Assembly: GCA_902812455.1 (NCBI GenBank)
Contig: CADDZH010000031.1
Location: forward strand, 1-47,928
DNA from: Chloroflexota bacterium
GTDB taxonomy: Bacteria > Chloroflexota > Ktedonobacteria > Ktedonobacterales > Ktedonobacteraceae
DNA: 47,928 bases
Direction: 5' to 3'
Shown: positions 31,135 to 41,444 of the stretch, piece after piece
Layout: each line of letters begins with the position of its first letter
Position numbering within the stretch: the stretch's first letter is position 1
Program-made: the position numbers and the translations under genes
The notes under the pieces: model-generated
The model's input: the letters and a program-made list of their open reading frames with translations, nothing else
The model's database searches: none
Told to the model about the DNA's origin: nothing

Positions 31135-32259
31135 ATGCGTGAAAAACCAGATATTCCAGACAAACTTTTGCGAACCACTTTACAGGATCAGTATGACCTG
31201 GTTCCCGTCACACTTGAGTTCCTTCCTCGCGGAAAGGATTACCATGCCGGCGTGTACCGGGTGGTGAGCGAGCAGGGAAGTATCTACTTGCTCAAAGTCA
31301 CCTCCAGACCTCTCTATGCACCACGCTACCAGGTTCCTCGCTATCTCTACGATCAGGGCATCACATCCGTCGTCGCTCCCCTGCCTACCAGGAGCGGTGC
31401 CTTGTGGACAAAGCTGGCGGATTGGGCGGTGATCGTCTACCCCTTTATCGAAGGGGATTCCAGCCTGCCGGGCATGACGAATGAACAATGGAAAGAGTTG
31501 GGAAGCATCTTCAAGCAGATTCATCACACCCCTGTACCGGCTGTAGGGTTCGAGTCGCTGCGCAAAGAAACCTTTGATGCAACCGAGTATGTCCGGTGGA
31601 TACATACCTTTGAGACAGAGCACCTCTATTCACAACACGGTGAAAGTGCCTCTCAGCGTGTGCTTCGCACTGACTGGCTGGCGCACCAGGCCACGATTCA
31701 CAGGGCAGTAAGCTCCCTGGAAAAGCTGGCGCGAGTGCTCCAGCAGCGATCAGGGCCATACGTCATCTGTCACGCGGACTTGCACCCGGCCAATCTGATC
31801 CGCGATGCTAGCGGCCATGTGTTTGTGATCGATTGGGATGACGTGATGCTGGCGCCCAAAGAGCGCGATTTCATCTTTATCAGGGAGCCGCAGGCAGATG
31901 CGTTCTGGGAAGGATACGGGCAGCCGCAAATTGATTGGATCGCACTCACCTACTACCTCTGGGAACGGGTCGTGCAAGATGTGATCGCGTGCGCCGATGA
32001 CGTGTTTTTCCAGGACGACCTGGGAGAAGAAACCAGGGCAGATATTGCCGGGTTGTTTCATGTGATCCTGGAGGAGAACAACAGCATCATCAATGCTGCA
32101 AATGCGGCTGCTGCACATCTTCCAGCAGATCTCAGCTTAGGGGGTAAAGGGGTGCCTCTCGTTTTTCATTCACTATCCCTGCTGCTTGATCCGGATGAAT
32201 TGTTCCCATCGAGATATTGGTCGAGAGCTTACCTTCTTTCCATATACCTCGCCATGTAA
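31135..32259 (+). CDS. Aminoglycoside-phosphotransferase-family kinase (APH), C-terminal extension
   Basis: 374 residues with the APH fold: a nucleotide Lys in YLLKVTS (54), the catalytic loop HADLHPAN (213-220) and the metal-binding IDWDD (232-236). The LAPKERDFIFIREPQADAFW part resembles spectinomycin phosphotransferase-like proteins, but substrate is not assured. The usual fold ends near residue 335; the last 35-40 residues run into AT-richer DNA that is also the 3' end of the opposing gene at 32173, so the original end may have been replaced. A TATAAT is at 31110-31115 and no ribosome site is seen. Confidence 0.85.
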   Translation: MREKPDIPDKLLRTTLQDQYDLVPVTLEFLPRGKDYHAGVYRVVSEQGSIYLLKVTSRPLYAPRYQVPRYLYDQGITSVVAPLPTRSGALWTKLADWAVIVYPFIEGDSSLPGMTNEQWKELGSIFKQIHHTPVPAVGFESLRKETFDATEYVRWIHTFETEHLYSQHGESASQRVLRTDWLAHQATIHRAVSSLEKLARVLQQRSGPYVICHADLHPANLIRDASGHVFVIDWDDVMLAPKERDFIFIREPQADAFWEGYGQPQIDWIALTYYLWERVVQDVIACADDVFFQDDLGEETRADIAGLFHVILEENNSIINAANAAAAHLPADLSLGGKGVPLVFHSLSLLLDPDELFPSRYWSRAYLLSIYLAM

Positions 32260-32421
32260 GTTGCTTATCAAGTACTCAACGACCGTAGCAACCTCTTGGG
32301 AATTTGACAAGAAAGGGATAGCTCTAATATCACTAATCGAGAGTTCGCCTTTCTGCCTGAGAATGTTCGAGGCAATTTGAATGGCTATTTGTGTTCTATC
32401 ATGAGCAGATTGTTGAATCAT
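32173..32421 (-). CDS. Small helical protein, possible winged helix
   Basis: 82 residues, family not recognised. The order helix (RTQIAIQIASNILRQKGELS), helix (ISDIRAIPFLSNSQEVATVV), helix, and the basic end (GKKVSSRPISRWEQFIRIKQ) would suit a small winged-helix or an adaptor. AAGGGGG ten bases ahead of the ATG supports translation. It is the last gene of the left arm, 48 bases behind protease 1. Its 3' end overlaps the APH gene end by 87 bases in opposite orientation. Confidence 0.6.
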   Translation of the reverse strand: MIQQSAHDRTQIAIQIASNILRQKGELSISDIRAIPFLSNSQEVATVVEYLISNLHGEVYGKKVSSRPISRWEQFIRIKQQG

Positions 32422-32469
32422 CGTAGTTCTACCCCCTTTCTTGAAGCTGTGCCATCTTCAAAAATAGCG

Positions 32470-33435
32470 CTATTCATTTCCATCCAGAAGGGCACTCCTT
32501 TTTCCAGATTCGGGAACTGCCTTCATTATTTCAGGGAAATTTTTCAAGAGCTCCTCCATCCGGCTTGCCTTTGCTTGCCTTTCGATTTCTTCTTTTTGCT
32601 TGTTGAGTTCATATAACTCCCAAACGAGGTCGAACTCATCTGGCTCTAATTCCCGCACTTTTAGCCCAATAGAGCTTGCCTCTTCAACATCTATGCAGAA
32701 TCCATGATCAGAATATTGTTCTGTTAAGGCCTGCCCTATTGCCCTAGCCTGTTCTTCGGCTCCTTCTCCACTGAACATGTGAGTGGTAAGTAGTTTGACA
32801 ACGTATTGCTTACCTACATCAAGAGACTTTTTTATACCACCGAGAGTAAGTGGAAATTGAAGTCGCTGTAACAGGCCTTGAGCAAGTTTTTCGTTGCCAT
32901 GGGCAAACTCGTTCCGTATCATGTCCAATATCGCCTCTATGCTGAGAGGCGAGAAATATTCTAACCGCTTTTCAAGTTGATTGTATTGGGTAATTTGTGG
33001 GTCCAAAGGACCTAACTCAGCGATGGGCCCCATATATATTATATCACCACCACATACTAATAGGGTAGCCGCGCTTTTAGCCCACCGTGGGACAATGAAA
33101 TTAAGCTCTTCCTTAGCAAATCGTCGAAATAGACGGGCGAGATTATACGCTGCATGAATATCGCCTCCCGATGAGTCTACTATAACATCTAATCTTGTAC
33201 AAGTGTTTGCGATACAGGAACGAAGATCATCGAAAACACCATCTACGGTATAACCCTCAATAATTGTATCGCCCAGAAACAGAGGATATACAGATCGTCC
33301 TCGCTTCTCTTCTAACCGAGAGAGAACTTGTTGTATCTTCTCATCAATTTCTTGTAGCAAGCTATCAACTGACTTAGAGGTGTTGCTCATATCTGTGGGC
33401 TCATTCGGTATAGTATCGTTGAACTTCTTACGCAT
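32470..33435 (-). CDS. SDH_sah-type (ClpP/SppA-fold) serine protease 1
   Basis: 321 residues. A coiled N-terminal part (about 16-47) precedes the crotonase/ClpP-like core: IVDSSGGDIHAAYNL (oxyanion region, 85-99), the likely nucleophile Ser121 in RWAKSAATLL, and AELGPLDPQI (139-148). The LGP-DPQ motif after the Ser is typical of the serine dehydrogenase proteinase group (SDH_sah). No signal peptide, so probably cytosolic. The C-terminal region is helical and charged. GGAGGG precedes the ATG closely. Divergent from mod and separated from it by the zinc-ribbon gene. Confidence 0.82.
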   Translation of the reverse strand: MRKKFNDTIPNEPTDMSNTSKSVDSLLQEIDEKIQQVLSRLEEKRGRSVYPLFLGDTIIEGYTVDGVFDDLRSCIANTCTRLDVIVDSSGGDIHAAYNLARLFRRFAKEELNFIVPRWAKSAATLLVCGGDIIYMGPIAELGPLDPQITQYNQLEKRLEYFSPLSIEAILDMIRNEFAHGNEKLAQGLLQRLQFPLTLGGIKKSLDVGKQYVVKLLTTHMFSGEGAEEQARAIGQALTEQYSDHGFCIDVEEASSIGLKVRELEPDEFDLVWELYELNKQKEEIERQAKASRMEELLKNFPEIMKAVPESGKRSALLDGNE

Positions 33436-33564
33436 TGTCCCTCCACCTACGAATTATGCTACGATTGACAAATGGAACCTGAGGAGATTGGCGAACCATA
33501 TAATAACATATCTCTTCTATTATCTCAAGTATATGCTATCAAAACCAGCATTTCTAAGCCGTTC

Positions 33565-33762
33565 TCAATTGGTTCGCGATGCTCTCGCCGCTTTCTTCTC
33601 ATTGTATGTAGGCATAGCTGTCTTCTTCCTGGGCACATTCCAATATGGACTTTTGCATTTTGGACACACACGAGGATCTGGTTGCCCTTTGTCCTGCTTT
33701 CTTGGCAACCACTCATGCCCACATCGCTCACAATGATAACCCCATAATTGTATCCTGCTCAT
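33565..33762 (-). CDS. Small zinc-ribbon protein
   Basis: 65 residues with CERCGHEWLPRK and CPKCKSPYWNVPRKK: two CxxC knuckles of a rubredoxin-like zinc ribbon. Similar small ribbons often stand beside TA or defence genes (my recollection). First gene of the left arm, 129 bases before protease 1. Confidence 0.75.
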   Translation of the reverse strand: MSRIQLWGYHCERCGHEWLPRKQDKGQPDPRVCPKCKSPYWNVPRKKTAMPTYNEKKAARASRTN

Positions 33763-33821
33763 ACCTAAAAGTATATGATTAGAAGGTAAGTTTTGTCAAT
33801 GGACTGTTCTCAAATCAACCC

Positions 33822-33850
33822 TTGCAATTTCCTCAACAATACGCTACACT
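33822..33850 (+). promoter_or_regulatory. Probable promoter of mod-res
   Basis: TTGCAA (33822-33827), 17-base spacer, TACACT (33845-33850), 82 bases ahead of the mod start. Confidence 0.45.
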
Positions 33851-33931
33851 GAGCTTATCGCAAAACCCATCAGGCACACAACCAGCATTCATTCAAATTC
33901 GACAAACTCTGCTAGATAGGAAACCTGTCGC

Positions 33932-35881
33932 ATGACCGAGCTTATATGGGATGGCAAGTACAAGGATGGGAAAAAAGTAGGGCCGGTACGCATTCAACTC
34001 CCCTTTCAGACCGTCGAGACCGTCAACGAATCCGCCCAGCAGCGCCAACTGATGCTCGATCTCCTCTTCTCTGGCCAGAAAACCGGCTGGCGCAACCGCC
34101 TGATCTGGGGCGACAAAAAGTATGTGCTGCCCAGCTTGTTACCAGAGTTTGCCGGCAAGGTCAACCTTATTTACATCGATCCACCTTTCGCTACTGGAGA
34201 TAACTTCTCATTCACGGCTACTGTTCCAGAGACCAGCGAGAGATTCGTCAAGGAGCCTAGCATCATTGAACAGAAGGCTTATCGGGATACCTGGGGACAT
34301 GGACTTGATAGCTATATGCAATGGTTTTATGAAACAGTAGTATTGCTGCGAGAGCTATTGGCGGAAAACGGAAGTATTTATGTTCATCTCGACTGGCACG
34401 TCGGACATTATGCCAAAGCCATATTGGACGAAGTCTTTGGATATGAGAATATTGAAAGTCAAATTATCTGGCAGAGAGTTACAGGCCATATGGACACTCA
34501 AAGTTTTGGGTTTAACCACGACATGATTTTACACTATGGAAAATCCAGAGGCGTGATCATATGGCATCCGCAATATGCTCTCTATGATGAAAGCTATCTC
34601 GCAACTCATTATAGGAGCCAGGATGCAGATGGTAGAAGATATGAACTTGACCAAATAAGTGCAGCGGGTCAAGGCCCGCCTAGATATTTCTTTGGAAAGT
34701 TGCTTGATCCACCAGCAGGAACTCACTGGCGTTGGTCACAAGAGCGTATTGATCAGTTATGCAAAGAAGGTCGAATAGTTATCACATCAGGCGGCAGACC
34801 AAGATACAAACGATATCTTGATGAACAACCTGGCAAATCAGTTCAATCTATCTGGACAGATATTCCCCCTGTAAATTCTCAGGCCAAAGAAGATACAAAA
34901 TACGCAACCCAAAAACCGGAAGCCCTCCTTGAACGCATCATCAAAGCCTCATCCAACGAAGGCGATCTCGTTCTTGATTGCTTTTGTGGCAGTGGCACAA
35001 CTGCCGCCGTTGCCGAGAAGCTTGGTAGGCGCTGGATCGCCTGCGATTTAGGACGTTTTGCCATCCATACCACGCGCAAGCGCTTGCTCTCTATCGATAA
35101 CGTCAGGCCGTTCGTCGTGCAGAATCTTGGCAAGTACGAGCGGCAGGCGTGGCAGGCTGCCGAGTTTGCCGATCCGGCGCAACGAGCCAACGTCCAGTTG
35201 CGCTATCGCAATTTCATCCTTGACCTCTACCACGCTACTCCCATCGATGGCTACACCTGGATACATGGCATCAAAGCCGGGCGGCTCGTACATGTCGGCT
35301 CGGTCGATGCTCCCATCGCGTTAGGGGAAGTCAGATCTATCGTCAATGAGTTCTGGCGCGTCAAGGGTAGGGATGCCGGGGAGCACAGCAACGGCATCGA
35401 CGTGCTTGGCTGGGATTTTGCCTTTGACCTCAACGAGACGGCAAAGCAAATGGCCGCCGATGCCAATATTCGCCTTTCGTTCAAGAAGATACCGCGCGAG
35501 GTGCTTGAGAAAAAGGCCGTTGAGCAGGGCGATGTTGTCTTCTATGAACTGGCCGCGCTGGATGTTGCCGTGAAAACTGAGAAGAAATCTCTTTCGGTGG
35601 AGCTACAAAACTTCTTCGTGCCGCCCGATGATGTGCCGGAGGAAGTGCGCTGCGCCATTACGCATTGGAGCCAGTGGATCGATTACTGGGCCGTTGACTG
35701 GGATTACCGCGATGATACCTTCCATAACCAGTGGCAAACCTACCGTACCAAGAAGGAACCAAAGATACTTTTGCGCACCTTCCATACCTACGATGAGCCA
35801 GGAACCTATACCATCGTCATCAAGGTGATCGACATTTTAGGCAACGATACCACGAAGTCTATTACTGTGGAAATAATGTAG
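33932..35881 (+). CDS. mod: Type III restriction-modification DNA methyltransferase (Mod)
   Basis: 649 residues; adenine-N6 methyltransferase of the beta class because the catalytic motif DPPF (83-86) precedes the SAM-binding FCGSGTT (351-357). Phe in place of Tyr in DPPY is a common variant. In this class the target recognition region lies between the motifs; here residues of about 90-330 coincide with a drop in GC (22/60 in 34441-34500 and in 34801-34860, against 35/60 in 34021-34080 and 39/60 in 35101-35160). The C-terminal 250 residues follow the methylase core and end in a beta-rich FHTYDEPGTYTIVIKVIDIL segment. 39 bases ahead of res. Recognition sequence unknown. Confidence 0.93.
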   Translation: MTELIWDGKYKDGKKVGPVRIQLPFQTVETVNESAQQRQLMLDLLFSGQKTGWRNRLIWGDKKYVLPSLLPEFAGKVNLIYIDPPFATGDNFSFTATVPETSERFVKEPSIIEQKAYRDTWGHGLDSYMQWFYETVVLLRELLAENGSIYVHLDWHVGHYAKAILDEVFGYENIESQIIWQRVTGHMDTQSFGFNHDMILHYGKSRGVIIWHPQYALYDESYLATHYRSQDADGRRYELDQISAAGQGPPRYFFGKLLDPPAGTHWRWSQERIDQLCKEGRIVITSGGRPRYKRYLDEQPGKSVQSIWTDIPPVNSQAKEDTKYATQKPEALLERIIKASSNEGDLVLDCFCGSGTTAAVAEKLGRRWIACDLGRFAIHTTRKRLLSIDNVRPFVVQNLGKYERQAWQAAEFADPAQRANVQLRYRNFILDLYHATPIDGYTWIHGIKAGRLVHVGSVDAPIALGEVRSIVNEFWRVKGRDAGEHSNGIDVLGWDFAFDLNETAKQMAADANIRLSFKKIPREVLEKKAVEQGDVVFYELAALDVAVKTEKKSLSVELQNFFVPPDDVPEEVRCAITHWSQWIDYWAVDWDYRDDTFHNQWQTYRTKKEPKILLRTFHTYDEPGTYTIVIKVIDILGNDTTKSITVEIM

Positions 35882-35920
35882 GGGTTTGATTTATCGTGCC
35901 CACTAGCAAGGACAAGCAAC

Positions 35921-38491
35921 ATGGCACGCAGCCGTAAACCGCAAGCAGACGACACGCAACCCAGCCTCTTTGACCTGACCCTCTATCTCAAAACAGCCCC
36001 CTGTGTTCCGGCTCTGCGTAAGCTGGTCGCCGAATGGAGAGCGAACGGCTACCAGGGTAGCACGCGCACCACGCACACGCTCTTGAACTACTGGTTCTCC
36101 GCCGATCACAAATTGCCCAATGGCCAACTGTTCCGCTATCTTGAAGCGCAACGCGAGGCCATTGAGACGCTCATCTATGTCTACGAAGTTGCCAGGGTGC
36201 GCACGCGCAAAGACCTCTTAGAGAAATATGCACCGGCCAACAGCCAGGTACGCCTCCCTGCCTATGATGAGTTCGCTCGCTACTGCACTAAGATGGCCAC
36301 CGGCAGCGGCAAAACAAAAGTCATGTCCTTAGCTATCGTTTGGCAGTATCTCAATGCTGTCCTGGAAAGCGAAGAAGACTATGCCAAAACCTTCTTGATC
36401 ATTGCCCCCAATGTCATCGTGTATGAGCGCCTGAGAACCGACTTTGAAGGCGGGCGCATCTTTGTGACCGATCCGCTTATCCCGCGCGAGTGCAAAATCT
36501 TCTGGGAGTTCGATTGTGTCATGCGCGGCGATGCCGAACGCGCTCCCACCGATGGCATGTTGTTTGTGACCAATATCCAGCAGCTTTACGACAGGACAGA
36601 GCGCAAGAGAAACGACGACGATGAGCCGGACATCATGACCGAGGTGCTCGGCCCCAGGCCGAAAGAAGACCTCAATAGCGATCTTACCGGCTTTCTTGAC
36701 ATGCTTGCCAAACGCAGCGGCAAGCTCCTGGTTCTCAATGATGAGGCCCATCATACGCACGATGAAGAAAATGAATGGAACAAGGTGATCCGCCGCCTTC
36801 ATACCAACATACCCATTGCCGCCCAGCTCGATTTTTCTGCCACGCCACGCTTCACCAGGGGCGGCTTATTCCCCTGGGTCATTTCTGATTATCCCATCAA
36901 GCAGGCCATTATCGACAACGTGGTCAAACGGCCTGCCAAGGGTATTGCCAACTTTGACGAGGCGAAGAGTGACGTTGCCAGCGTGCGCTATCAAGCCTAT
37001 CTGACGGCAGGCGTGGAGCGCTGGCGCGAGTACCGCGAGCAGCTTGCGCCCATGAAGAAGAAGCCCATTCTCTTTATCATGATGAATACGACCGAGGAAG
37101 CCGAGGATGTCGGCGACTGGCTACGCAAGAAATACCCCGGCGAGTTTAGCGGCGACCATAAAACGCTGGTGATCCACACCGATAAGACAGGCGAAATCTC
37201 CAAAAAAAGCCTTGATGCTGCGCGCAAGCTTGCCCGTGAAGTCGATAGACCCGATTGCCCAACCAACGCCATTGTGAGCGTGCTCATGCTGCGCGAAGGC
37301 TGGGATGTACAGAATGTGACCGTTGTGGTTGGCTTGCGTCCCTATACCGCCGCTGCCAATATCTTACCGGAGCAGGCTATCGGGCGCGGCCTGCGCCTGA
37401 TGTTCCGGGGCCAAAACTATACCGAGCGCGTCGATATCATCGGCAACAAGAAATTCCTGGAGTTCGTAGACGAGCTGGAGAAGCTAGAGGAGCTGCAGCT
37501 CGATACATTTGAAGTTGGCAAAGACAGGCTCAAGATCATGGCGATTGAGCCAGTGCCGGAAAAAGCAGTCTATGATCTGGCATTGCCCAGGTTGACGCCC
37601 ATGATCGCTCGCAAAAAGACGCTTGGCGAGGAAATCGAATCCATCGATGTCATGCGCTTCAGATTCAGTCCCGATCCCTTATCTCGCAAACCGAAGGACG
37701 AAGATATCAAGAAGTTCCAGTACGAAGCTTTCGACATCATCACAAGGGAGAAGCTCTTTGAACGCGAGTATGCCATCCAGGACCCGCAGCGGCCGGACGA
37801 AATTGTGAGCTACTACGCGAAAGTGATTGCCGGTAGCCTGAAGCTGCCCAGCCAGTTCAGCGCCCTTGCGCCGAAAGTGTGGACATTCTTTGAGCGTCGC
37901 GCCTTCGGTGATAAGGTCGATATGTACAGCCCCACCATCATCCAGGCCATGAACCATCGCGTCGCCGGTTACGTCGTCCTTGATGTCTTCGCCAGGGCCT
38001 TGAAAGACAAGATCATCGAGCAGTTGGAGCCAACCATCGAGGGTGAGAGCCGGCAACTTTCATCGATGGAACCCTTCGCCTTCTCGCGGCAAGTTCTCGA
38101 AGCCAGGAAATGCGTCCTCAACTATGTGCCATGCGACAACGACTTTGAGTATGAGTTCGCCCGTTTCCTCGACAACGCCAGGGATGTAGAAGCCTTCTCC
38201 AAGCTGCCCCAGCAGTTCGGCTTCTCCATAGAATACACCGACAACAACGCCAACCTGCGCTACTACTACCCCGACTTCGTCGTCAAAACTGAAACCGGCG
38301 AAATGTGGCTTGTGGAAACAAAGGGCCAGGAGTCACTCGAAGTAGCCTTCAAAGACCGCGCCGCTCGCCTCTGGTGCGAAAACGCCACCATGCTCACCGG
38401 CGAGCGCTGGAGCTACGTCAAAGTCCCCCAGCGAGAGTACTACAAGCTGCAACCGGTAGAGTTTTATGATTTGCTGGCATTTGTTATGTAG
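35921..38491 (+). CDS. res: Type III restriction enzyme (Res): helicase plus nuclease
   Basis: 856 residues. Walker A ATGSGKT (126-132), DEAH (274-277), SATPR (motif III) after QLDFSAT, and motif VI-type EQAIGRGLR. The C-terminal PD-(D/E)xK nuclease has YPDF (Asp785) and VETKG (Glu799, Lys801). It works with Mod to cut unmethylated sites after translocation or sliding. Both catalytic ends are present, so the enzyme should be active. GC content is similar to most of the window, unlike the flanking protease genes. Confidence 0.93.
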   Translation: MARSRKPQADDTQPSLFDLTLYLKTAPCVPALRKLVAEWRANGYQGSTRTTHTLLNYWFSADHKLPNGQLFRYLEAQREAIETLIYVYEVARVRTRKDLLEKYAPANSQVRLPAYDEFARYCTKMATGSGKTKVMSLAIVWQYLNAVLESEEDYAKTFLIIAPNVIVYERLRTDFEGGRIFVTDPLIPRECKIFWEFDCVMRGDAERAPTDGMLFVTNIQQLYDRTERKRNDDDEPDIMTEVLGPRPKEDLNSDLTGFLDMLAKRSGKLLVLNDEAHHTHDEENEWNKVIRRLHTNIPIAAQLDFSATPRFTRGGLFPWVISDYPIKQAIIDNVVKRPAKGIANFDEAKSDVASVRYQAYLTAGVERWREYREQLAPMKKKPILFIMMNTTEEAEDVGDWLRKKYPGEFSGDHKTLVIHTDKTGEISKKSLDAARKLAREVDRPDCPTNAIVSVLMLREGWDVQNVTVVVGLRPYTAAANILPEQAIGRGLRLMFRGQNYTERVDIIGNKKFLEFVDELEKLEELQLDTFEVGKDRLKIMAIEPVPEKAVYDLALPRLTPMIARKKTLGEEIESIDVMRFRFSPDPLSRKPKDEDIKKFQYEAFDIITREKLFEREYAIQDPQRPDEIVSYYAKVIAGSLKLPSQFSALAPKVWTFFERRAFGDKVDMYSPTIIQAMNHRVAGYVVLDVFARALKDKIIEQLEPTIEGESRQLSSMEPFAFSRQVLEARKCVLNYVPCDNDFEYEFARFLDNARDVEAFSKLPQQFGFSIEYTDNNANLRYYYPDFVVKTETGEMWLVETKGQESLEVAFKDRAARLWCENATMLTGERWSYVKVPQREYYKLQPVEFYDLLAFVM

Positions 38492-38641
38492 ATTAAGCTT
38501 TGTCCATAGAGAAAGTAGGACAAATGGCCTATGTAGCCTATTCTAATGTGAAAAACGATCTGCTCAACGTTGAAGTTGTAGACATATCTTCTACCCACAG
38601 ACAATAGCTTCATATTCTACTAGTAGCAAGGAAGGCAGACA

Positions 38642-39811
38642 GTGAGCAGAGAAAGCAGAGTAGCAATTTTAGAAAAGATCCAGACGTTGAGAAACTCTTA
38701 TGTCCTCGTATACCTTACTGGGGATCGACAACCGACTCAAGCTGTAATTGCTGAGGATGCAGTTCGTCCTCTTTATGATCATCTATTAGCATTGGCACAG
38801 TCTACACCTACGAAAAGGAAAATAGACTTATTTCTTTACAGTCGAGGAGGCGATGTCAGCGTTCCCTGGCGGATAGTTAGCATGATTCGCGAGTTCTGTG
38901 ATGAGTTTTGTGTCCTGATCCCATACAAAGCCTATAGTGCTACGACAATGATTTCTATGGGAGCCGATCAAATTGTTATGGGCAAGAAGGCTGAATTAGG
39001 CCCTATTGATCCTACACTTGTGAGATCGATAACCGGTGAGGCAGGGGTACCACCAACGGAGATCAGTGTAGAAGATGTATTCTCCTACATCTCCTTTATG
39101 AGGGAGAGGGCAAATATCAGCGATCAAGTTGCTCTTGCTCAGGTGGTGTCGCAGCTAGCAGATCACTTAACTCCTTTGACATTGGGAAGGGCTAATCGAC
39201 AGTATTCTCATATTAGGCTGGTCGCTAGAAAACTACTCACATCACATCAACAGAAAATAGAAGAGAGCAAAATTGGAACGATTGTTGAGGCTCTTACGGA
39301 GAAGATGTACTCACACGGACACGCAATTGGAAGAGCTGAGGCGGCTGAAATTGGCTTACCGGTAGAAATACCCGATGATGAGCTTGAGAAACTGATATGG
39401 AATCTCTATACGGAATATGAGACTTTACTGCAACTTAACGACGCTCTCGAGCCCGAAGAGTTAATGGAACAACAGAATAAGGATCAGATTAAAGAAAGAG
39501 TCCTGTTGGCTATAATTGAGAGCACCCAAAAACAACACGTAGTGGAAGCTAATGCGGTCTTCCAACGGAGGCGACAAATTCCTTCAAATCCTCAAATAAA
39601 TATCAACTTACCACTAAGTCTACCGCCTGGACTTGATCCGGCTCAACTGCCTTCTGACATTCAACAACTGTTGCAGCAAATGCTTACCCAATTATCCCAG
39701 ATAATCCCACAAATTGTACAACAGGAAATAGTTCGTCAGTCGCCAGTTATTGGCATTGAGGGAAGAGTTTATGCAGCTAAATGGATAGAAAAAATAGACG
39801 ATATGATATAA
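38642..39811 (+). CDS. SDH_sah-type (ClpP/SppA-fold) serine protease 2
   Basis: 389 residues. Core: FLYSRGGDVSVPWRI (64-78), the likely nucleophile Ser99 in YKAYSATTM, and AELGPIDPTL (117-126). It is a different branch from protease 1: identity looks limited to the motifs. The C-terminal part is Pro/Gln-rich (PLSLPPGLDPAQLPSDIQQL) and ends with coiled-coil-like repeats. Start is GTG 38642 with AAGGAAGG ten bases ahead. It follows res after 150 bases; a 28-codon frame with a weak ribosome site (38524-38607) sits in between. The small gene 39850 comes 38 bases later. Confidence 0.8.
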   Translation: MSRESRVAILEKIQTLRNSYVLVYLTGDRQPTQAVIAEDAVRPLYDHLLALAQSTPTKRKIDLFLYSRGGDVSVPWRIVSMIREFCDEFCVLIPYKAYSATTMISMGADQIVMGKKAELGPIDPTLVRSITGEAGVPPTEISVEDVFSYISFMRERANISDQVALAQVVSQLADHLTPLTLGRANRQYSHIRLVARKLLTSHQQKIEESKIGTIVEALTEKMYSHGHAIGRAEAAEIGLPVEIPDDELEKLIWNLYTEYETLLQLNDALEPEELMEQQNKDQIKERVLLAIIESTQKQHVVEANAVFQRRRQIPSNPQININLPLSLPPGLDPAQLPSDIQQLLQQMLTQLSQIIPQIVQQEIVRQSPVIGIEGRVYAAKWIEKIDDMI

Positions 39812-39849
39812 TATACCTTGTTTAACAGTTAAGGAAAGGGGAGGCACCC

Positions 39850-40065
39850 ATGTCCATCAATGTAAACTTGCAAGTAGTGCCCTTTGGACAGATTGTTTTT
39901 AAGATAGATTCGCCTACCAACGAGCCCCTTAAACGTTTGCCTGATGCTAGCCAAGAAAAGATTGAATACCATGAGCCTCAGCAAACAGTCCCGGTGGTGT
40001 ATGAGATCATATACGAATATCAACTGGGAAATTTTGTTGTGCCCTCCTCCACAACTTATCGCTAA
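39850..40065 (+). CDS. Small beta-rich protein of unknown function
   Basis: 71 residues, family not recognised. MSINVNLQVVPFGQIVFKID, later VVYEIIYEYQLGNFVV, are mainly strands. AGGGGAGG lies five bases ahead of the ATG. Likely co-transcribed with protease 2 and may be its partner or substrate adaptor (inference). Confidence 0.65.
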   Translation: MSINVNLQVVPFGQIVFKIDSPTNEPLKRLPDASQEKIEYHEPQQTVPVVYEIIYEYQLGNFVVPSSTTYR

Positions 40066-40080
40066 TTAATTTCTTGTGCA

Positions 40081-40482
40081 CTATTCATCTTGTACAGTAA
40101 ATACTACTCTGGCGATCATTTGAAGTAATTTGTCCCAGGAAGCAGTTTGCACTTCTTCATATTTGCGGACACCGTCCTGTTGATCTATGTAAAGATAACC
40201 CAGGACGCCGGAAGGGTCAGCGTGGACGGCAATTTCAACTGGTCGTGTGCCCCACTCAATTTGTATGCCGCCGCCGGCACGTGGCGCCACAACTTGTGGC
40301 TGAGATTGTTCTGGGGTCAGCCTTCCGAAGATCTCATACACAGCCTGGAGCAGGTTGTATGCTGTAGCGATGGCTTGAGGAGATGGAGGATCGCCACCAT
40401 ACGAATCCCAGTCCGGTCCGAGTTTCGCAATTTCATCAAGCTGATCTGATGCCCACTGCATCCAGCTCCTGGACAGTGACAC
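40081..40482 (-). CDS. Hypothetical protein (WDSYGG type)
   Basis: 133 residues. IAKLGPDWDSYGGDPPSPQA, APRAGGGIQIEWGTRPVEIA and LGYLYIDQQDG define a soluble alpha/beta protein; I recall similar proteins in Chloroflexota and Cyanobacteria but no function. The start is GTG 40482, or ATG 40461 with AGGAGC close to it. It follows the 77-residue gene by 18 bases. Confidence 0.65.
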   Translation of the reverse strand: MSLSRSWMQWASDQLDEIAKLGPDWDSYGGDPPSPQAIATAYNLLQAVYEIFGRLTPEQSQPQVVAPRAGGGIQIEWGTRPVEIAVHADPSGVLGYLYIDQQDGVRKYEEVQTASWDKLLQMIARVVFTVQDE

Positions 40483-40500
40483 AGATAAGTTCCATAGCGA

Positions 40501-40734
40501 TCACACATCTACCGGTCTGAATTTAAGCGTAAACTCTGTATACTTACTCTGCATGGGCTGTTTTCTTTCGGTCTCATAGCGCTTTCTTTTTGCTTCTCTC
40601 GTAGCTAAATTTTGCTGTGCAATAAATGTACCCGCATTTTGATATTTTTGCAAGGGTTGCAAAATACTCAGCGTTGCCTCAGCCCATCGTTGGATAGCCT
40701 GGGCATGCTCGCGATCGTGGTCAAGTGGGAACAT
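40501..40734 (-). CDS. Hypothetical 77-residue basic protein
   Basis: Unknown family. One long helix (EHAQAIQRWAEATLSILQPL), a basic middle (REAKRKRYETERKQPMQ) and a terminal strand KYTEFTLKFRPVDV. ATG 40734 comes two bases after the stop of the Crp gene, so it is probably coupled to it; a longer frame to 40782 would overlap that gene. Confidence 0.6.
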   Translation of the reverse strand: MFPLDHDREHAQAIQRWAEATLSILQPLQKYQNAGTFIAQQNLATREAKRKRYETERKQPMQSKYTEFTLKFRPVDV

Positions 40735-40736
40735 GT

Positions 40737-41444
40737 TCAGCCGAGTGAGTGCTCGAACTCTTCGTTGATAATGCGATAGCATTCGCAGGAACGTGCTTCC
40801 AATCCCTCTCGATCCATAATGGTGATAATCCCGCGATGGTAGCGGATCAGTCCGGCCTGCTGCAATTCGCTGGCAACTTCACTGACGCCAGCCCGGCGTA
40901 CCCCTAACATTTCAGAGAGGAATTCCTGGGTGAGGGGAAACTCATTTGTGCCTACTCTATCCTGCGTCGTCAACAGCCAGCGCGCACAGCGCTGGGAGAT
41001 GTTATGCACCCGATTACAGGCGACTGATTGCGCCACCAGCATAAACATCGCCTGCGTATAGCGCTGTAAAATATCTCGCAGGGGTTCCAGGTGCGTGAGG
41101 GTTTGTCCGAACGTTTCAGAGGACATGCGCAGAGCTTCTCCCGGGATTTGAACTATTGATCTGGTTGGCATCGCGTCTGACCCGAGAAAGACGGGCAAAC
41201 CCACCATACCCTCGTTGCCTACCGTTGCCACCTCGATACTGGTTTCATCTTCCAGCACAACAAGAATGGAAACAACCCCACTGAGGGGAAAGTAGACATG
41301 GGACATGGGAATATCCGGCTCTTGCAGCGTTTGTTTGAACGAAAGTGCGACGTGCTCCAGGACAGGTGGAAGCTGTTCATAAGCCTCAGGTGGAAGAGCT
41401 GCCAGCAGGCGATTCCTTCTTGCAAGACGAGCTTCTATCTCCAT
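40737..41444 (-). CDS. Crp/Fnr-family transcriptional regulator
   Basis: 235 residues. The cNMP-fold N domain (VYFPLSGVVSILVVLEDETS, EVATVGNEGMVGLPVFLGSD) lacks the cAMP-contacting residues of Crp (no RxS phosphate-binding cassette) and any Fnr cysteines, so the ligand is unknown. The C-terminal winged helix has FPLTQEFLSEMLGVRRAGVS. GGAGGTGA is ahead of ATG 41444. Confidence 0.9.
   Translation of the reverse strand: MEIEARLARRNRLLAALPPEAYEQLPPVLEHVALSFKQTLQEPDIPMSHVYFPLSGVVSILVVLEDETSIEVATVGNEGMVGLPVFLGSDAMPTRSIVQIPGEALRMSSETFGQTLTHLEPLRDILQRYTQAMFMLVAQSVACNRVHNISQRCARWLLTTQDRVGTNEFPLTQEFLSEMLGVRRAGVSEVASELQQAGLIRYHRGIITIMDREGLEARSCECYRIINEEFEHSLG

Follow-up and report, generated by a model that had tools for sequence, protein, structure and literature searches.

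The 47,928-nucleotide stretch of the Ktedonobacteraceae (Chloroflexota) contig CADDZH010000031.1 analysed here, called the window in the following, carries a restriction-modification (RM) pair of mod and res genes which is bracketed by two genes for SDH-type serine proteases, each accompanied by a small open reading frame (ORF). A preliminary description made from the sequence had placed seven ORFs in this region, and all of them were found at those positions. On the forward strand the core consists of Mod (33932..35881), a type III-like N6/N4 DNA methyltransferase of 649 amino acids, and Res (35921..38491), a helicase-nuclease of 856 amino acids. It is followed at a distance of 150 bp by the gene of the protease P2 (38642..39811; 389 amino acids, GTG start) and by that of its small partner p71 (39850..40065; 71 amino acids). 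On the reverse strand lie the ClpP-fold protease P1 (32470..33435; 321 amino acids), its small partner p82 (32173..32421; 82 amino acids; as a caveat, its 3' end overlaps a convergent forward-strand ORF at 31135-32259 by 87 bp) and a zinc-ribbon protein of 65 amino acids, ZnR (33565..33762). The locus is a mosaic of a type III-like mod-res core and a two-gene protease module on each side (P1 with p82, P2 with p71). Among 69 clustered loci (73 ORFs) two distinct SDH proteases around one core were found in the window only, and the other loci with two such ORFs (L011, L084 and L139) were read as split genes.

Mod matched PF01555 (E 1e-42) and the PADLOC model MTase_III (E 9e-111) and carries DPPF at 83 and FCGSGT at 351, i.e. 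motif IV before motif I, the order of the beta class. Res matched PF04851 (E 1.2e-16), the endonuclease domain PF19778 (E 1.8e-6) and REase_III (E 4.8e-26). It shows the motifs GSGKT (Walker A), DEAH, SAT and QAIGRGLR as well as PD-x13-ExK near the C terminus, corresponding to the superfamily 2 helicase and PD-(D/E)xK nuclease of type III RM. Motif reading and profile matches therefore confirmed the earlier claim that the catalytic motifs of both proteins are intact. Against the NCBIfam type III endonuclease equivalog PRK15483, Res scored 15.5 bits and did not reach the cut-off of 564; the best NCBIfam model, the BPTD_3080 family, gave 297 bits and stayed below its cut-off of 800. For this reason we name the pair type III-like.

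Two SDH-type proteases and their small partners

Both proteases exceeded the PF01972 cut-off of 31.3 bits (P1: 57.1 bits, E 2e-15; P2: 54.2 bits, E 1.5e-14). With 64.8 and 70.8 bits, respectively, they did not reach the equivalog cut-off of NF047768 (250 bits) and therefore belong to the same superfamily but to different subfamilies. Comparison of P1 and P2 with 5027 PADLOC-DB models gave no family at E <= 0.01. The two are homologous to each other (hhalign probability 99.7%, 30% identity over 240 columns) and fell into separate clades of a quick tree, which contains some long branches and open forks. The joint family alignment behind the later steps was made without standalone p82 rows.

The triads of P1 (Ser121/Asp145/His244) and P2 (Ser99/Asp123/His225) share alignment columns. 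Serine, aspartate and histidine occupy these columns in all 60 fetched family ORFs of at least 250 amino acids; among the 240 matches listed, including the two of the window, we found serine in 238 (2 gaps), aspartate in 238 (2 glutamates) and histidine in 240. From the alignment to ClpP and NfeD 1510-N we infer that these are the catalytic residues. Their order agrees with the Pfam name 'SDH-type' and differs from that of ClpP, which is Ser-His-Asp. With PF01972 exceeded, the triad invariant and the clades separate, the earlier view of two different proteases of the SDH/ClpP fold which keep the nucleophile serine (Ser121 and Ser99) was upheld. The invariant triad together with the conserved partners also rules out chance ORFs or pseudogenes.

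The P2 family profile matched 1510-N (E 1.6e-4) and ClpP. For the P1 profile the best E against solved structures was only 0.064, and PDB searches with the single P1 and P2 sequences gave two chance-level matches in one case and none in the other. No transmembrane-like stretch was found in P1 or P2, so that a membrane protease like SppA or NfeD was ruled out. The two proteins share the fold and the catalytic region with PF01972/NF047768, NfeD 1510-N and SppA, but differ in staying below the NF047768 cut-off, in lacking such a segment and in having clade-specific partners. A phage head-maturation protease was rejected as well: NF045542 scored 26 and 32 bits at a cut-off of 120, and the Escherichia coli prophage carrying a relative (see below) has an HK97-type prohead protease of its own. 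P2 ends in a conserved C-terminal tail (NPQININ...Q-rich), and most of its close homologues share its length and start point.

At E <= 1e-5 we found 944 homologous proteins for P1 and at least 2646 for P2, for which the 7997 best candidates were scored. P2-like proteins (profile A1, E <= 1e-40) occurred in 7 of 350 Chloroflexota genomes including the centre genome G003, in 16 of 294 genomes in the phylum of the Methanosarcina genome G006, in 14 of 396 in the class of G003 and in 6 of 294 in the class of G001; the genome samples overlap in part. P1 (profile A2) was detected in 3 of the 350 Chloroflexota genomes (G001, G003 and G009, all already in the P1 set) and in 1 of 117 in a further sample, the centre genome G008 itself. 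The classes of G542 and G026 yielded no new P2-clade locus. The SDH protease family is thus large and sporadic, and its members are soluble and look catalytically intact.

The P1 and P2 clades each possess their own small partner. A p82 homologue lies directly 3' of P1 in 9 of the 13 P1 loci (L001, L003 and L005-L011), that is in 9 of the 11 with downstream sequence: it is missing at L002 and L016, and the sequences of L004 and L012 break off at or within the p82 gene. The P1-p82 pair is found in Chloroflexota, Dadabacteria, Cloacimonadota, Gammaproteobacteria, Methanosarcina and a Heimdallarchaeote, and in 6 of 120 P1 homologues among the matches listed (P0140 being one of them) p82 is fused to the C terminus of P1. 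Directly 3' of P2, a p71 homologue is present in all five P2-clade loci, i.e. the window and L063, L082, L083 and L084, the latter four from the phylum of G006, archaea included. At L084 the P2-clade gene is broken by stop codons and the p71 homologue alongside is still open. The database search gave 13 p71 homologues besides p71 itself, one of them (P0247) from a Ktedonobacteraceae metagenome-assembled genome. The p71 profile found no match at L049 and L050, the nearest loci outside the P2 clade, or at L121 and L122, two loci added once the tree had been built and absent from it; L135 begins at a contig end.

Other members of the family have other neighbours of small size. PemK-like proteins of 141-148 amino acids occur in 5 loci (Pfam checked on L131), a protein of 97-101 amino acids in 3 loci, and proteins of about 90 amino acids beside a Fic/Doc-like gene in several loci. 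Fic/Doc-like genes, which form one cluster with the Pfam Fic assignment checked on L097 only, lie within 350 bp of the SDH protease in 7 of 69 loci (L052, L053, L090, L096, L097, L098 and L129). Several of these loci have a small ORF in between, which looks like a three-gene module of protease, small protein and Fic. The profiles of four partner families, namely p71, p82 and two on the Fic side, show no relationship to one another (hhalign probabilities < 1%). ZnR is weakly FmdB-like, with PF09723 at 25.7 bits and TIGR02605 at 21.6 bits, both below cut-off. It had no homologue at E < 0.01 in the loci collected at the time of the check and was dismissed as a conserved part. Of the small partners named in the preliminary description, p82 and p71 thus proved conserved, and the zinc ribbon did not.

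Restriction genes around relatives of the proteases

Members of the family lie beside or inside several types of restriction systems more often than random places in the sampled genomes do. PF01555 methyltransferases were found near P1 in 7 of 13 loci compared to 0.72 expected (Poisson-binomial p 6e-7), where the expectation is taken from each genome's own number of such genes and the methyltransferase-positive P1 loci were entered by hand. The 13 loci are the set obtained after setting aside L013, L014, L015 and L017 (31-36% identity); with these four more distant loci included the result was 8 of 17 versus 0.92 expected (p 2e-7). At L001 the methyltransferase is 6.5 kb away from P1 with other genes in between.

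We also scored the loci with an RM panel of 26 proteins. Since 20 of these were drawn from the test loci, each locus's own members were left out, the panel remaining tuned to relatives of the test set all the same. As controls we used 38 windows of 20 kb, placed at random in 16 of these genomes and thus in part of the genomes with a test locus. A panel match was obtained for 27 of 69 family loci versus 4 of the 38 windows (p 0.0017), and for the P1 loci alone for 9 of 13 (Fisher p 1.2e-4). After merging proteases at 80% identity into 57 groups, the counts were 24 of 57 versus 4 of 38 within 10 kb (p 0.0011), 23 versus 4 within 5 kb (p 0.002), 20 versus 4 within 2.5 kb (p 0.008) and 13 versus 2 within 1 kb (p 0.024). 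The count for the test loci is lowered by several that lie on short contigs. Single assignments have to be read with care: DUF499 was counted as a restriction or defence core though it is not a classical RM enzyme, and L005 and L012 are positive solely via each other's DUF499 protein; L050 is positive via one ORF of 95 amino acids only; L057 was scored as type I positive despite an ORF read as a transposase between the protease and hsdM; L053 and L083 were matched solely by their own members and remained uncounted.

Type III-like arrangements were observed in several lineages. In L008 (Cloacimonadota) P1, p82, Mod with PF12564, an ORF of 420 amino acids and Res follow each other on one strand. 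L002 (unclassified bacterium) contains a Res-like ORF (E 4e-8), two ORFs and Mod, with P1 2.6 kb further on. In L014 (Latescibacteria) Res is followed after 83 bp by a co-directional protease, Mod being 2.6 kb further on, and L056 (Dehalococcoidia) shows the order protease, Res, Mod; the proteases of L014 and L056 belong to neither the P1 nor the P2 clade. Type I operons of Chloroflexota (L130-L133, class of G003) contain relatives detected by the P2 profile, in the common order protease, PemK-like gene, hsdR. There the gap between protease and hsdR, which holds the PemK-like gene, is 0.85-1.1 kb. The upstream hsdS is about 43 bp away in L130, about 4 bp in L131 and 1.4 kb in L132 and was not seen in L133, and hsdM is present in L130-L132. 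Type I genes are also near the proteases of L096, L097, L124 and L125. Further cores comprise an MmeI-like one (L007), Eco57I-like together with HKD-Snf2 (L127 and L129), MvaI/BcnI endonuclease with methyltransferase (L053), Mrr (L125), DUF499 (L005 and L012) and a PD-(D/E)xK-helicase protein (L048). A system specific to type III was accordingly ruled out, given the type I, MmeI-like, Eco57I-like and MvaI/BcnI genes. The L048 protein belongs to a Candidatus Chlorohelix plasmid on which an SDH protease, an ORF of 76 amino acids, the PD-(D/E)xK-helicase of 1326 amino acids and an ORF of 255 amino acids stand in a row (L048:9974-16236); by PADLOC its helicase part is DpdJ/MkoA-like.

Members of the family also occur outside restriction loci. 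An SDH protease of the wider family, 35% identical to P2 over 82%, was found at >= 99% identity in 49 places in 47 of 5426 complete E. coli genomes. All three places inspected are lambdoid prophages in which the protease gene is flanked by those of the Q antiterminator and the holin, both encoded on the other strand, and no restriction gene is annotated in these three prophage stretches. In one of these prophages (L047) a phage N6-adenine methyltransferase is about 3 kb away from the protease. There, an unannotated ORF of 59 amino acids (L047:10983-11162, forward strand) overlaps the end of the protease gene and, compared by eye, is similar to the beginning of the small partner in L127 and L129. 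In archaea, five near-identical loci (L085-L089) have constant housekeeping surroundings with Lhr-type helicase, alanyl-tRNA synthetase-like, SOR/SNZ and PALP genes. They share a conserved protein of 282-332 amino acids that is weakly AbiTii-like (E 2.7e-4, below cut-off). In L095 a TOTE-type primase-domain protein (L095:2742-5642, reverse strand) is encoded about 4 kb from an SDH protease.

Possible roles of the proteases

Restriction-modification ranks among the most frequent defences of prokaryotes; the question is which accessory genes of the operons are real components and what they do. The relatives beside and inside many restriction systems suggest a protease arm of antiviral immunity that has not been described. 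We tentatively propose, as a possible rather than a probable explanation, that P1 and P2 are latent effectors coupled to restriction in the manner of PrrC and carried on portable modules of protease and partner. The protease would form a second line of defence beside the restriction system. It would be kept quiet by the small partner, perhaps docked on the RM complex, and the complex itself may also silence it. Once the complex engages foreign DNA, or a phage anti-restriction factor disables it, the protease would be unleashed and might cut host or phage proteins or release a toxin, so that the infection aborts. Such a protease arm would tie DNA sensing to protein cleavage, a linkage known for some CRISPR and STAND-type systems. 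The conserved pairs P1-p82, P2-p71 and protease-PemK are small and compact. The wider proposal, that SDH proteases with clade-specific partners act as RM-coupled proteolytic effectors in bacteria and archaea and fit type I, II, IIG and III systems, with two of them surrounding a single core in the window, is put forward with considerable doubt.

The co-directional arrangements P1-p82-mod-ORF-res in L008 and res-83 bp-protease in L014 speak for an effector, as do the excess of RM genes around the family and around P1, the gene order in L130-L133, the Fic/Doc-like genes close by, the intact triad, the dedicated partners and the p82 fusions. The short distances to hsdS in L131 (about 4 bp) and L130 (about 43 bp) together with co-directional P1-p82-mod in L008 suggest co-expression. 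The preliminary description had suggested that the proteases could act as abortive-infection effectors or regulators linked to DNA sensing by Res. Our data are compatible with this role, but neither type III RM nor sensing by Res is a specific partner of the family, which is also seen with type I, IIG, II and DUF499 loci and, in some cases, on its own.

Accessory modules linked to RM are a known kind of arrangement; what is new here is that the enzyme is a protease. The gene of PrrC resides within a type IC locus, and PrrC is coupled to the state of the RM system (PMC12707154, PMC3506569). The proposed scheme would be that of PrrC in EcoprrI, except that a protease replaces the tRNA nuclease, and the likeness consists in an accessory effector gene inside or beside an RM locus (window, L008, L014 and L130-L133). 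In contrast to this anticodon nuclease, the enzymes of the window are proteases with dedicated small partners, their family accompanies several RM types, and in the window they flank the type III-like pair instead of interrupting it. Since the effector candidate is a protease, it is at most an analogue of PrrC and not a member. Two-gene defence modules inserted in type I operons are also represented by DarTG2 between hsdS and hsdR of an enteropathogenic E. coli type I system (PMC12255303) and by TgvAB within the Vibrio cholerae type I RM operon (PMC11411939). These are a toxin-antitoxin and a type IV nuclease, respectively, and neither is a protease, unlike the SDH modules. A coupling of immunity with suicide genes has been proposed in an article whose main text does not contain the word protease (PMC3506569). 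Among the full-text literature matches listed, judged by titles and the first parts of abstracts and poor in subscription journals and bioRxiv, no description of SDH proteases in RM loci, or of a protease arm of RM, was found; three publications mentioning PF01972 or 'serine dehydrogenase proteinase' looked unrelated by title.

Several findings weigh against a coupling of protease and restriction enzyme. Within 10 kb, 33 of the 57 groups had no RM panel match. The P2 clade is RM-linked in 1 of 5 loci by the panel (the window), or in 2 of 5 with the PglXI-like methyltransferase of L083, and it is thinly sampled, L063 and L082 being short or beginning at a contig end. RM-linked protease neighbourhoods in several phyla, named earlier as the outcome that would lend support, were thus found together with conserved partners for P1 and the wider SDH family, but for the P2 clade the sample is too small. 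The random-window control leaves room for defence-island clustering of RM genes, and since RM genes cluster in this way and the gap between hsdS and hsdR has been described as a potential hotspot of recombination (PMC12255303), proximity does not prove a coupling. Standalone copies without a restriction gene nearby exist in the three E. coli prophages inspected and in the five archaeal loci. P1, p82, P2 and p71 have a GC content at third codon positions (GC3) of 0.38-0.46, compared to 0.55 in mod, 0.70 in res and 0.53-0.66 in eight surrounding genes. Because of this difference in base composition the protease modules and mod-res did not arrive as one old unit; the modules resemble each other and differ from the core, as would be expected after separate additions. 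The low GC3 is not peculiar to them, as two ORFs of 133 and 93 amino acids next to the p71 gene have values of 0.46 and 0.41. These observations can also be read as protease and partner being a self-contained toxin-antitoxin-like or stand-alone defence module that amasses in defence islands and makes no contact with the restriction enzyme. The unmatched groups, the proposed hotspot and the base composition agree with it, as do the copies in prophages and a phage, the nearness to the TOTE-type primase gene in L095 and the lack of relationship among the four partner families compared. An uncoupled passenger fits poorly with insertion between hsdS and hsdR at gaps of about 4 and 43 bp, with co-directional P1-p82-mod in L008 and with a P1 enrichment that exceeds the genomes' own methyltransferase density, and we regard it as rather unlikely. 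That the protease is counter-defence cargo of mobile elements, cleaving host defence proteins and coming close to RM genes through shared elements, is improbable in our view. It would account for the lambdoid E. coli prophages, the more distant SDH protease of a Shewanella Mu-like phage and the transposase genes near several copies (L003, L009, L010 and L016), and phage ClpXP homologues of unknown function have been named as possible anti-restriction factors (PMC12707154). On the other hand, the protease is an in-line member of the type I operons in L130-L132, and scans of IMG/VR viral contigs with the profiles A1 and A2, which cover the P1 and P2 subfamilies only, matched patterns but confirmed no relative.

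The main rival of the effector is dedicated restriction alleviation, which we likewise consider unlikely: P1 and/or P2 would degrade or clip Res or HsdR when these threaten the host chromosome, for example upon entry of an RM system into a new cell, as ClpXP does with HsdR of EcoKI. ClpXP degrades HsdR of type IA and IB enzymes, acting on the DNA-bound, translocation-competent enzyme (PMC4231737, PMC12707154), and is thus a ClpP-fold protease at work on a restriction system (PMC4231737). It is a housekeeping AAA+ protease, termed a quality-control protease in PMC12707154. Near P1 and P2 a scan of nine genes at 32173-40782 found no AAA+ unfoldase, although a housekeeping one elsewhere is possible. 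The distance from the protease to the helicase-nuclease gene (150 bp in the window, 83 bp in L014, 0.85-1.1 kb in L130-L133) is as alleviation would have it, and the mobile RM types found together with the family are many and must all cope with entry into a new cell. In contrast, the standalone copies of prophages and archaea lack a neighbouring restriction gene that they could control, and the core of L053 is of the MvaI/BcnI type. Enzymes of this type belong to the ordinary type II nucleases and are not known to possess a translocating motor. Together with the PemK-like and Fic-like neighbours, which suit a killing module better, this type II case favours an effector over alleviation; the adjacency to res or hsdR fits both, and the two readings are poorly separated by the data.

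Surroundings of the locus

The outer neighbours of the locus look unrelated to it; their translations, read by eye without family search, are hydrolase-, helix-turn-helix-, phosphotransferase-, Crp- and CheB-like. No tRNA gene was found in the whole window. A promoter-like sequence TTGACA-18-TATACT (11/12) is located on the reverse strand at 33770-33799 directly upstream of the ZnR gene, with the number of similar sites over the whole region at chance level. Next to the p71 gene, on the reverse strand, the ORF of 133 amino acids (40081-40482) matches the C-terminal part of the PADLOC candidate family PDC-M32A (E 5.5e-7). It is adjoined on the same strand by the ORF of 93 amino acids (40501-40782), and the two may constitute a further defence-type pair beside the protease module.

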